Below, piece after piece: positions 20,802 through 23,897 of a DNA stretch of 37,413 nt (the stretch's first letter is position 1; the number at the start of each line of letters is the position of its first letter). The notes under the pieces are model-generated. The model made no database searches. It worked only from the letters and a program-made list of their open reading frames with translations, and was not told the DNA's origin. Position numbers and translations under genes: made by a program. Source of the stretch: Arcicella sp. (GTDB lineage: Bacteria; Bacteroidota; Bacteroidia; Cytophagales; Spirosomataceae); the NCBI GenBank assembly GCA_025354645.1, contig JANXML010000309.1, positions 1-37,413 on the forward strand, written 5' to 3'.

Positions 20802-21551
20802 ATGAGAAAATTTACTTTATTCGTACCAATTTTACTAATCCTAATGAGCTTATCTCCCGACCCTTTAAACTTCTATCAAGCTCAATTACATTTCCCCAGA
20901 GTTCGAGAAGCCCTTAAAACCAAAGGCAAAATTGTGGATGAAATGCTTATTAAGAAAGGCATTAGCACCACCAATTTCGAGGTGTTTTTTAGAGCTTTTA
21001 AGAAAGAACAAAAATTTGAAATGTGGGCAAAAAATAAAGGAGAAACTGCTTTTAAACTTTTGAAAACTTACGATTTCTGTGCTTCAACTGGAATATTAGG
21101 ACCTAAAAGACGTTCGGGCGACCGTCAAATGCCCGAAGGGTTTTATGTCATTGATGGCTTTAACCCAACGAGTAATTATTACCTATCTTTTCGAGTTAAT
21201 TATCCAAATAATTCTGACAAAAAGTTTGCCGACCCATTAAATCCTGGTGACAATATTTTTGTGCATGGCTCTTGCATTTCAATCGGATGTATTCCATTGG
21301 GTGATGAAAATATTAAAGAAATCTATCTTTTAGCGGCTCGTGCAAAAGGAATTGACCAAGAGATTCCGATTCATATTTTTCCTAATAAAATGACGGATGA
21401 AAACTATAATGCTTTGAAAACAGAATTTGCTTCGAATGATACCTTATTAAAATTTTGGTCGTGGTTAAAACCAGGTTTTGATGCTTTTGAGAAATCTAAT
21501 ACTGTTCCAACTGTCTCGGTTGATGATTCTGGCAAATACACGATAAAGTAA
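20802..21551 (+). CDS. L,D-transpeptidase (YkuD/YafK-like) family protein
   Basis: 249 aa; DNIFVHGSCISIGCIPLGDENIKEIYLL catalytic block; MPEGFYVIDGFNP; N-terminal signal. Confidence 0.88.
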   Translation: MRKFTLFVPILLILMSLSPDPLNFYQAQLHFPRVREALKTKGKIVDEMLIKKGISTTNFEVFFRAFKKEQKFEMWAKNKGETAFKLLKTYDFCASTGILGPKRRSGDRQMPEGFYVIDGFNPTSNYYLSFRVNYPNNSDKKFADPLNPGDNIFVHGSCISIGCIPLGDENIKEIYLLAARAKGIDQEIPIHIFPNKMTDENYNALKTEFASNDTLLKFWSWLKPGFDAFEKSNTVPTVSVDDSGKYTIK

Positions 21552-21557
21552 ATATTA

Positions 21558-21774
21558 CTGATGTTACGCAAGAGAAGCCTGAAAGGCTTAAATATGAATA
21601 GCCGTAGGTGCAACCTACGGAAAAATAACGTCACGACCACAACCCTGACAGGGTTAAATCAACCAGTATAACAAGTTATTCATCCCCTTCGGGGGTTATT
21701 TACTCGATTTTACTTTCCGTAGGTTGCACCTACGGTTATTCATATTTAAGCCCTTTGGGCTTGCGTAACATCAG
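21558..21774. mobile_element. MITE-like palindromic element, copy 1 (217 bp)
   Basis: TIRs CTGATGTTACGCAAG / CTTGCGTAACATCAG; perfect AATATTA flanks at 21551-21557 and 21775-21781; internal hairpins incl. CCGTAGGTGCAACCTACGG (21602-21620) and CCGTAGGTTGCACCTACGG (21717-21735). Confidence 0.75.
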
Positions 21775-21813
21775 AATATTACTTAGATTAAGAGCATTAA
21801 TATTAAGCATAAG

Positions 21814-21866
21814 AGACATTATGACCGTTTTTGTTAATATAAACGGTCATAATGTCTTCTTTTTTG
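21814..21866 (+). terminator. Rho-independent terminator
   Basis: agacattatgaccgttt (21814-21830) / aaacggtcataatgtct (21841-21857), 17-bp stem followed by T-rich tract. Confidence 0.8.
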
Positions 21867-21941
21867 TGCTGGTACAAGATTTGAATAATACTTAATACTT
21901 CGACAAATGAAGTCAAAAAAAGCAAAACCTGCACACATTAC

Positions 21942-22337
21942 ATGGAAAAGAAAATAGTGATTCCGAGAGAAATTTTAGCAAATATAGATTTTAGCAACAC
22001 CTTAAACGGGGGACGAGTTGAACCCAAAATTGAAGTTAATCAAACACCTGATTCGTATGAAATTTTTGTAAAAGTAGCGGGATTAGAAGCTGACCATTTG
22101 AAGTTAAATATCGAAGATAATCGTTTGTGGTTATACGCTTTGCAACCCGTTTTAAAGACAGCGGAGCAAGAAGTTCACGAGAATTTTGTGCCTCAAACCA
22201 TTGGACAGCTAATGTTACCAAACTTTGTGGATGTGGATAATATTTCAGCCCGTTACCACAATCATCAATGGAAAATTGTTATGCCTTTTGATGATGCCAA
22301 AAAAGGATTTAAGAAAGATATTGAAGTTCAGTTTTAA
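21942..22337 (+). CDS. Hsp20/alpha-crystallin family small heat-shock protein
   Basis: 131 aa; YEIFVKVAGLEADHLKLNIEDNRLWLYA...LPNFVDVDNISARYHNHQWKIVMPF. Confidence 0.75.
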   Translation: MEKKIVIPREILANIDFSNTLNGGRVEPKIEVNQTPDSYEIFVKVAGLEADHLKLNIEDNRLWLYALQPVLKTAEQEVHENFVPQTIGQLMLPNFVDVDNISARYHNHQWKIVMPFDDAKKGFKKDIEVQF

Positions 22338-22374
22338 TTTATTTTGCAATATAACCAACTGAATATATGCATTG

Positions 22375-22407
22375 CCCTGCCAGGTACGCCTGTGTAGGGT
22401 TTTTTTT
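22375..22407 (+). terminator. Rho-independent terminator of the Hsp20-like gene
   Basis: CCCTgcCAGGtacgCCTGtgtAGGG followed by TTTTTTTT. Confidence 0.75.
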
Positions 22408-22461
22408 GTGGTTCATTAGAAATAACTTAAATTGTGTGTTCAAAATTTAATCAAATTTCAA

Positions 22462-23604
22462 ATGAAAACAATGTATTCCTTTGTCATAGCGTTTTTAATA
22501 ATCGCTAACACATTCTTAAACGCACAAAATAAACCTAAAAACAACATGAACAACGATTTTCACCTTTTAGTAGGGACTTATACTTCTGGAAAAAGCGAGG
22601 GTATTTATGTCTATAAATTTAATGTCAAAACGGGCGAATTTGAAGCAGAAAGCATTGCCAAAAACGTCAAAAATCCTTCTTATTTAGTGGTTTCTCCCGA
22701 TGAAAAATACGTGTATTCTGCGGGTGAAATTGATAAGAACGGGGCGGTTTATGCCTTTGCTTTCGACAAAAAAACGGGTAGCTTGAAACAATTAAGCACG
22801 CAATCTTCTAACGGAAATTATCCTTGTTTTGTTGACATTGATAAAACTGGAAAGTGGGTTTTTGCGGGTAATTATGGTGCTGGAAATTTAACGGTTTTGC
22901 CCGTTGAAGCCAACGGAGGATTAGGAAAACCAACCCAAACAATTCAACACGAAGGCAAAAGTGTGAACCCCGAACGCCAAGAAGGACCTCATGTTCATTC
23001 AGTAAATGTTGCTCCAAACAATGTTGATGTTTTTGTACCAGATTTGGGTTTGGATAAAATTTTTACGTATGCTCTGGATGCGAAAACGGGGAAATTGACG
23101 GCTGGAAATCCCGCCTTTACGAAAGTTCAAGACGGTTCGGGACCCAGACATTTTACGGTGCATCCTAATGGTAAATTTGCGTATGTAATTCAAGAAATTT
23201 CGGGCGATGTCACGGCTTTTGATTACAAGAAAGGGGCTTTAACGGCAATTCAGACTATTTCTGCTAAACCTGCGGGTTTCTCGGGCGACTTTAATTGTGC
23301 AGATATTCATATCTCGCCCGATGGTAAGTTTTTGTATGGTTCAAACCGTGTGCATGACAGTTTGGTAATTTATTCTATTGATGCCAAAACGGGCAAATTA
23401 ACGTACATAGCTCATCAATCAGTGATGGGTAAAAAGCCGAGAAATTTCATGATTGACCCAACTGGAAATTTTGTTTTAGTAGCAAATCAAGACTCGGATA
23501 ATATCACAATTTTTAAACGTGACATGAAAACAGGAATGCTTACTTCCATTGGAAAAGAAATTGCAGTGCCTAATCCTGTTTGTTTGAAAATGATTAGTTT
23601 TTAA
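22462..23604 (+). CDS. Lactonase (6-phosphogluconolactonase-like, seven-bladed propeller), exported
   Basis: LLVGTYTSGKSEGIYVYKFN, GPHVHSVNVAPN, VPDLGLDKIFTYALD, GPRHFTVHPNGKFAYVIQE, SNRVHDSLVIYSID; ATG 22462 starts the signal peptide. Confidence 0.92.
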   Translation: MKTMYSFVIAFLIIANTFLNAQNKPKNNMNNDFHLLVGTYTSGKSEGIYVYKFNVKTGEFEAESIAKNVKNPSYLVVSPDEKYVYSAGEIDKNGAVYAFAFDKKTGSLKQLSTQSSNGNYPCFVDIDKTGKWVFAGNYGAGNLTVLPVEANGGLGKPTQTIQHEGKSVNPERQEGPHVHSVNVAPNNVDVFVPDLGLDKIFTYALDAKTGKLTAGNPAFTKVQDGSGPRHFTVHPNGKFAYVIQEISGDVTAFDYKKGALTAIQTISAKPAGFSGDFNCADIHISPDGKFLYGSNRVHDSLVIYSIDAKTGKLTYIAHQSVMGKKPRNFMIDPTGNFVLVANQDSDNITIFKRDMKTGMLTSIGKEIAVPNPVCLKMISF

Positions 23605-23614
23605 AATTTACTAA

Positions 23615-23832
23615 CTGATGTAACGCAAGTAAAAGCCTAAAAGGCTTAAATGTGAATAGCCGTAGGTGAAACCTACGGAAAATTAACGTTCTAACTATAA
23701 CCCTGAAAGGGTTAAATAAATCATTGTAATAAGATATTTAACCCTTTCAGGGTTTATTTGTCCAATTACATTTTCCGTAGGTTTCACCTACGGCTATTCA
23801 AATTTAAGCCCGTTGGGCTTACGTAACATCAG
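23615..23832. mobile_element. MITE-like palindromic element, copy 2 (218 bp)
   Basis: CTGATGTAACGCAAG ... CTTACGTAACATCAG ends; near-duplicate flanks TTACTAA / TAACTAA (6/7); internal hairpins CCGTAGGTGAAACCTACGG (23660-23678), AACCCTGAAAGGGTT (23699-23713), AACCCTTTCAGGGTT (23740-23754), CCGTAGGTTTCACCTACGG (23775-23793). Confidence 0.75.
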
Positions 23833-23897
23833 TAACTAATATGGGCTACACTCTTTCTTCTTTTTAGATTAATTATCTTTTTGTTGTCAAAATTCAA

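Follow-up and report, generated by a model that had tools for sequence, protein, structure and literature searches.

A probable Y1-type repeat cassette within ISAba11-type ends: a non-autonomous transposon of Arcicella

MITEs are usually viewed as shrunken relatives of a single parent transposon. Two short elements in the genome of Arcicella sp. raise the question of whether ends and interior need share one origin, and of which enzyme moved them. They lie in a window (the whole stretch of DNA analysed, 37,413 nucleotides) that is contig C267 of a fragmentary assembly of 5.36 Mb in 392 contigs. A sequence-only reading had described them as MITE-like, with candidate 7-bp target duplications and a mobilising enzyme that it left unknown. 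We favour, with a probability of roughly 0.85, the reading that both are copies of a non-autonomous transposon, a Y1-type repeat cassette inside ISAba11-type ends, spread by an ISAba11-group transposase acting in trans. The MITE part of this reading is near certain, and the Y1 origin of the core, which is drawn from sequence comparison, is well supported. The element appears to be a hybrid, with a double-strand-cutting IS framing the repeats of a single-strand-processing transposase.

Element copies in the window and in the genome

In the boundaries of the sequence-only reading, copy 1 occupies 21558-21774 (217 bp) and copy 2 occupies 23615-23832 (218 bp). Both elements are where that reading had placed them and carry the 15-bp inverted ends that it gave; they can be aligned end to end and have the same internal order, and neither contains an open reading frame of at least 80 aa. 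A scan of the window for the end motif with up to 3 mismatches gave 6 matches where 1.16 were expected, and the only matches with 0-1 mismatch are the four element ends. The element is thus short, carries no transposase gene and has terminal inverted repeats, as MITEs do. Copies 1 and 2 are sited 6 and 10 bp past the stop codons of genes ending at 21551 and 23604, respectively, and both insertions are intergenic, between same-strand genes. With the boundaries revised as explained below, the features are as follows.

21552-21556, unstranded: copy 1 left 5-bp target duplication, ATATT (from the sequence; length fixed by Polaromonas copies)
21557-21570, + strand: copy 1 left inverted repeat ACTGATGTTACGCA, ISAba11 type (same end in L284, L285, L057, L056 and many other loci)
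21575-21620, + strand: copy 1 left two-hairpin module, AAGCCT-GAA-AGGCTT, linker AAATATGAATAG, then CCGTAGGT-GCA-ACCTACGG (sequence, covariation)
21641-21655, + strand: copy 1 third palindrome AACCCTGACAGGGTT (sequence)
21682-21697, + strand: copy 1 fourth palindrome ATCCCCTTCGGGGGTT (sequence)
21717-21762, - strand: copy 1 right two-hairpin module, in reverse orientation, its foot overlapping the right inverted repeat by one base
21762-21775, - strand: right inverted repeat of copy 1, TGCGTAACATCAG, with its terminal base, which is A in place of the expected T (sequence)
21776-21780, unstranded: copy 1 right 5-bp target duplication, ATATT (sequence)
23609-23613, unstranded: copy 2 left target duplication, TACTA (sequence)
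23614-23627, + strand: copy 2 left inverted repeat ACTGATGTAACGCA (sequence)
23633-23678, + strand: copy 2 left two-hairpin module (sequence, copy alignment)
23775-23820, - strand: copy 2 right two-hairpin module
23820-23833, - strand: copy 2 right inverted repeat TACGTAACATCAGT (sequence)
23834-23838, unstranded: copy 2 right target duplication, AACTA, a 4/5 match to TACTA (sequence)

A search of the full genome, which the sequence-only reading had proposed, added two full-length copies, C186:4553-4769 and C388:25786-26003, for a total of four, all with different flanks and so at unrelated sites. The C186 and C388 copies are 85% and 84% identical to copy 1. Despite lying at unrelated loci, the C388 copy and copy 2 are 98.6% identical, with 3 mismatches in 218 positions, which makes the spread recent when set against how far the other copies differ from one another. 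The element was not found in plasmid and phage records, and viral contigs held no paired CTGATG ends 120-150 bp apart, though this spacing is shorter than the element's own and makes the test a weak one.

Ends, target duplications and the mobilising enzyme

The flanking repeats AATATTA/AATATTA (copy 1) and TTACTAA/TAACTAA (copy 2), read earlier as 7-bp target duplications, are both present, and the C388 copy has TTAATAA on either side. The duplication itself is nevertheless 5 bp long. Its boundary is fixed by a related IS with 30 near-identical copies in Polaromonas sp. CG9_12 and P. glacialis, whose alignment sets the element at ACTGACCTTACGCAG...CTGCGTAAGGTCAGT; with the boundary at ACTGA..TCAGT and 5 bp duplicated, the 7-bp length is rejected. 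Among the 30 copies the duplication is exactly 5 bp in 25 and 6 bp in 4, with T before it in 28 and A after it in 26, a T-N5-A context. The 7 bp of the earlier reading therefore resolves into one repeat base, the 5-bp duplication and the preferred T/A. Seven-bp flanking repeats may, as a caution, mask a 5-bp duplication wherever target preference and outer repeat base match. In Polaromonas sp. CG9_12 (L108-L132, L145-L155) the IS is 1,103 bp long and of ISAba11 type, with about 30 copies and a clear T-N5-A preference.

Under the revised boundary the duplications are ATATT/ATATT for copy 1, TAATA/TAATA for the C388 copy and TACTA/AACTA for copy 2 (5/5, 5/5 and 4/5), and C186 shows TAATA/TAATA (5/5) only on the assumption that its right end has lost one T. 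The flanks are 77-85% A+T, and the sequence-only reading had asked that a chance match be excluded. Where this genome is AT-rich, sites at the same spacing match 5/5 with p = 0.0032 and at least 4/5 with p = 0.030, and the joint chance for copy 1, C388 and copy 2 in equally AT-rich DNA of the same genome is ~3e-7.

Empty orthologous sites, a further check proposed at the outset, were found at all three of the neighbouring sites tested in sister species. At copy 1 the flanking genes adjoin each other with no element between them in four genus relatives (G005, G004, G001 and G007). Three relatives (G003, G005 and G006) have an empty copy 2 interval. The C388 interval is likewise unoccupied in G006 and G005, and no element was seen there in G001 or G007. 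The intergenic spacers have diverged among sister species, so these sites are read as intervals rather than as base-exact pre-insertion sequences. Further copies, consistent duplications, empty sites and an autonomous IS bearing these ends together bear out the earlier description of a non-autonomous, MITE-like transposon.

The mobilising enzyme can now be assigned to the ISAba11-group (IS701-like) DDE transposases. A genome pattern search with the element end led to C26:4053-4067, the end of a transposase gene relic whose protein is IS701/IS4-like. Relics of this IS in the same genome comprise C26 (the 3' part of the transposase gene, 294 bp, plus the end; 85% identical) and C77; no intact ISAba11-type transposase was found in the 392 contigs of its incomplete assembly. 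A search of relatives with the C26 relic yielded a 372-aa open frame in an Arcicella sister genome (L056, in G006), bounded on one side by CTGATGTTACGCAGG and on the other by CTTGCGTAACATCAG, at which point the contig runs out, and a complete IS in Pseudarcicella (L057) of 1,146 bp with terminal A/T, a 355-aa transposase and CTGATGTTACGCAAA at both ends. The L056 and L057 transposases score 321 and 333 bits against NCBIfam IS701_2 (NF049921; cut-off 250). The search for full-length ISs bearing these ends, which the earlier reading had recommended, thus succeeded in Pseudarcicella, in Acinetobacter and elsewhere: ACTGATGTTACGCA ends occur on complete ISs annotated 'group ISAba11 transposase' in Acinetobacter (L284, 1,114 bp) and Cyanobacterium (L285), as well as on L057 and others, and the closest plasmid-borne relative has the same annotation. 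The Acinetobacter relative has ACTGATGTTACGCAG ends and a TATTT/TATTT duplication, again in a T-N5-A context. ISAba11 is 1,101 bp long with a 'characteristic 5-bp direct repeat' (PMC12893667, PMC7885321), and classical IS701 members make a 4-bp duplication (PMC2266710). Allowing up to 2 mismatches, CTGATGTWACGYAAG occurs 46 times in the genome and a reversed control 12 times; this excess, inspected in part, suggests further solo ends or relics of the IS.

The 14-bp ends ACTGATGTTACGCA are those that an ISAba11-group DDE transposase (NCBIfam IS701_2) recognises, and the element would have entered AT-rich intergenic T-N5-A sites by the DDE strand transfer of this family, giving rise to the 5-bp duplications. 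We infer both that the enzyme was supplied in trans and when it acted.

The C26 relic has a neighbour of another class: directly beside it (L018, ~420-1210) is a Y1 gene of 184 aa, bordered by palindromes of a different kind, CTGGTCGTAGGTTTAGCGAAGCGTTCCTACGACCAG and GCGAGACGCTCTATGCG.

The interior cassette and its association with Y1 genes

The element resembles the available ISs over its terminal 14-16 bp only, and its interior gives no sign of derivation from the IS by internal deletion; it thus works as an ISAba11-group MITE and is not a deletion derivative of the IS. The 187-bp interior alone has matches in 17 of 223 Spirosomataceae genomes and 7 of 36 genera, and in this family survey paired ends at element-length spacing occur in this genome only, the interior copies elsewhere lacking these ends. 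Degenerate IS ends may border two other core copies, C369 (p = 0.08) and C291 (p = 0.012), values that are single-test among ten tests and hence suggestive only; the core copy C170 and the G003 copies showed none. One core copy, at C291 27906-28181 (L010), has the second hairpin enlarged in both arms by one and the same sequence, in perfect reverse complement, which looks as though some process such as gene conversion holds the arms identical.

The cassette consists of a module in forward orientation at the left, the same module reversed at the right, and two further palindromes between. Each module is a triloop hairpin, a 12-nt linker with the consensus AAA(T/C)NTGAATAG, and a second triloop hairpin. 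Alternative stems, such as CCACGATT/AATCGTGG beside CCGTAGGT/ACCTACGG, are plain in the module sequences. Across 36 distinct modules 98% of cells are paired, and in 13 of 14 pairs both partners have changed (0 of 500 shuffles), values to be read knowing that rows were picked partly by pairing, which inflates the percentage paired and biases toward compensated over broken pairs; shifting the partner column by one lowers pairing to 45-53%. The single-strand fold lies far beyond shuffles (z = -15.7). An RNA family search gave nothing past gathering score, and an RNA family reading of its sub-threshold microRNA matches to the hairpins was rejected. A literature search with the repeat's letters found no paper. 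The GTAG that marks the foot of one hairpin in classical REPs is absent; the foot here is AATAG/AATAA, in the conserved linker.

In five other genomes (G147, G151, G153, G184 and G119) the modules adjoin a Y1 transposase gene. A family search with the 148-aa Y1 protein found correctly oriented modules at 8 of 13 distinct loci in the nearest clade (identity of 56% or more) and at none of the 15 Y1 loci that are more distant (Fisher p = 4e-4), a count that leaves out the weak match L266, takes three orthologous loci as one, and includes some loci with weak modules (L262, L265) located by a module finder tuned on the core. In three genera the upstream module starts at -192 to -203 from the Y1 gene. 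The order at these loci (module, palindrome, Y1 gene, palindrome, reverse module) mirrors that of the cassette minus the gene. The same modules flanking a Y1 gene, together with covarying stems, are what a Y1 repeat should show, and both are found here.

The linked Y1 protein scores 61.5 bits against the IS200 model (cut-off 55) and has EDHIH, WQ and Y---Q--HH in 148 aa. By motifs it agrees with TnpA_Y1 subclass 1.2 as given in Table 1 of PMC6006769 (DH[IV]H, WQ, Y---Q--HH, ~148 aa), a subclass generally without typical terminal secondary (IS200) structures (Quentin et al. 2018, PMC6006769). The Y---Q--HH signature is also present in the distant Y1 controls that have no modules, so our claim about modules is confined to one clade and does not extend to all bearers of the signature. 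The genome under study has no linked-clade Y1 match at E <= 1e-20. Its own Y1 genes were considered as the source of the core and rejected: they lack the modules, and those that are readable are class 2 (NHIH, NP motifs) or unresolved.

Because the same modules flank Y1 genes in other genera, the 187-bp cassette most likely represents the two terminal structures of an IS200-like Y1 (HUH) element minus its transposase gene. The Y1 protein would process the modules, cleaving or moving them. The cassette may have come to lie between IS ends by inserting into degenerate IS ends or by becoming enclosed between them; it is also possible that the ends arose by chance convergence. We propose tentatively, and at somewhat less than even odds, that the modules are previously unrecognised cis-substrates of a TnpA_Y1 subclass 1.2 clade, and that the cassette, orphaned in an Arcicella lineage without a visible clade enzyme, was re-mobilised via DDE IS ends, which would have carried it from one transposition system into another of unrelated mechanism. 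For subclass 1.2 this offers a lead, since one clade would then have a candidate covarying two-hairpin substrate that is directly testable.

Module copies are further amplified at two Y1 loci. In G119 (C1 ~770000, L250) the modules by the Y1 gene are tandemly repeated, with three copies at 257-bp spacing upstream, and in G184 (C2 ~68900-69200, L243) module copies recur at 75-bp spacing downstream of the Y1 gene.

Alternative explanations and comparison with known systems

That the 7-bp repeats match by chance, in AT-rich DNA around an element that does not move, is already refuted: their base composition favours it, but the joint chance was computed with an independently fixed boundary, orthologous sites are empty, and a nearly identical copy sits at an unrelated locus. 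Nor do we think it probable that the element is an ordinary internal-deletion MITE, left when an ISAba11-type IS shed its transposase gene but retained its native ends and the subterminal DNA. Ends and duplication length are indeed those of the IS, but similarity stops after the first 14-16 bp, and the interior instead matches a repeat family that occurs without these ends in other genera. Very improbable, too, is movement of the whole element by a Y1 (HUH) transposase via single-stranded DNA, with the 15-bp ends belonging to the repeat family. The interior does belong to a Y1-associated family, but its copies elsewhere lack the ends, identical ends are found on DDE-type ISs, and 5-bp duplications are present. 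Y1 transposition is not known to make a target duplication.

An unlikely reading, though one that deserves some weight, is that the interior is a conserved array of regulatory or terminator RNA, unrelated to transposition and captured between IS ends. Strong covariation is equally expected of an RNA, and both window copies are located just past stop codons. It is opposed by the RNA family search, in which no known family passed its gathering score, by modules that keep a fixed orientation and distance at the genes of one Y1 clade and do not occur at more distant Y1 genes, and by a cassette whose two arms are inverted copies and which is found at unrelated sites.

The element shares with ISAba11-group ISs (IS701-like, NF049921) the terminal repeat ACTGATGTTACGCA and the 5-bp duplication in T-N5-A; it differs from them in having no transposase gene, a length of 219 bp against ~1.1 kb, and an unrelated interior. 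Like the bacterial MITEs MITEAba12 (PMC6382973) and TIMEs (PMC4133298) it is short, non-coding and intergenic, with IS-type inverted ends and parent-like duplications, but its interior consists of recognisable, independently dispersed palindromic repeats of another transposase class. The linked Y1 proteins have the motifs and the length of TnpA_Y1 subclass 1.2; whereas that subclass is described as generally lacking terminal structures, the clade seen here has cognate-looking two-hairpin modules. With the REP/BIME sequences of TnpA_REP (RAYT) the modules have in common that they are hairpins scattered through intergenic DNA in opposite orientations, that their stems covary, and that in some genomes a Y1 gene lies adjacent. 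They differ in comprising two hairpins and a 12-nt linker in place of a GTAG-footed hairpin, and in being linked to a Y1 protein of class 1 (Y---Q--HH), not class 2 (Y---NP).

Between the two elements, at 21813-21890 and upstream of an Hsp20-like gene (21942-22337), the window also contains a palindrome, GACATTATGACCGTTTT...AAACGGTCATAATGTC, followed by TGGTACAAGATTTGAA, which resembles a sigma-54 -24/-12 site. The segment is possibly an activator-controlled heat-shock promoter; palindrome and TGGTACAAGATTTGAA are kept in several other Arcicella genomes.
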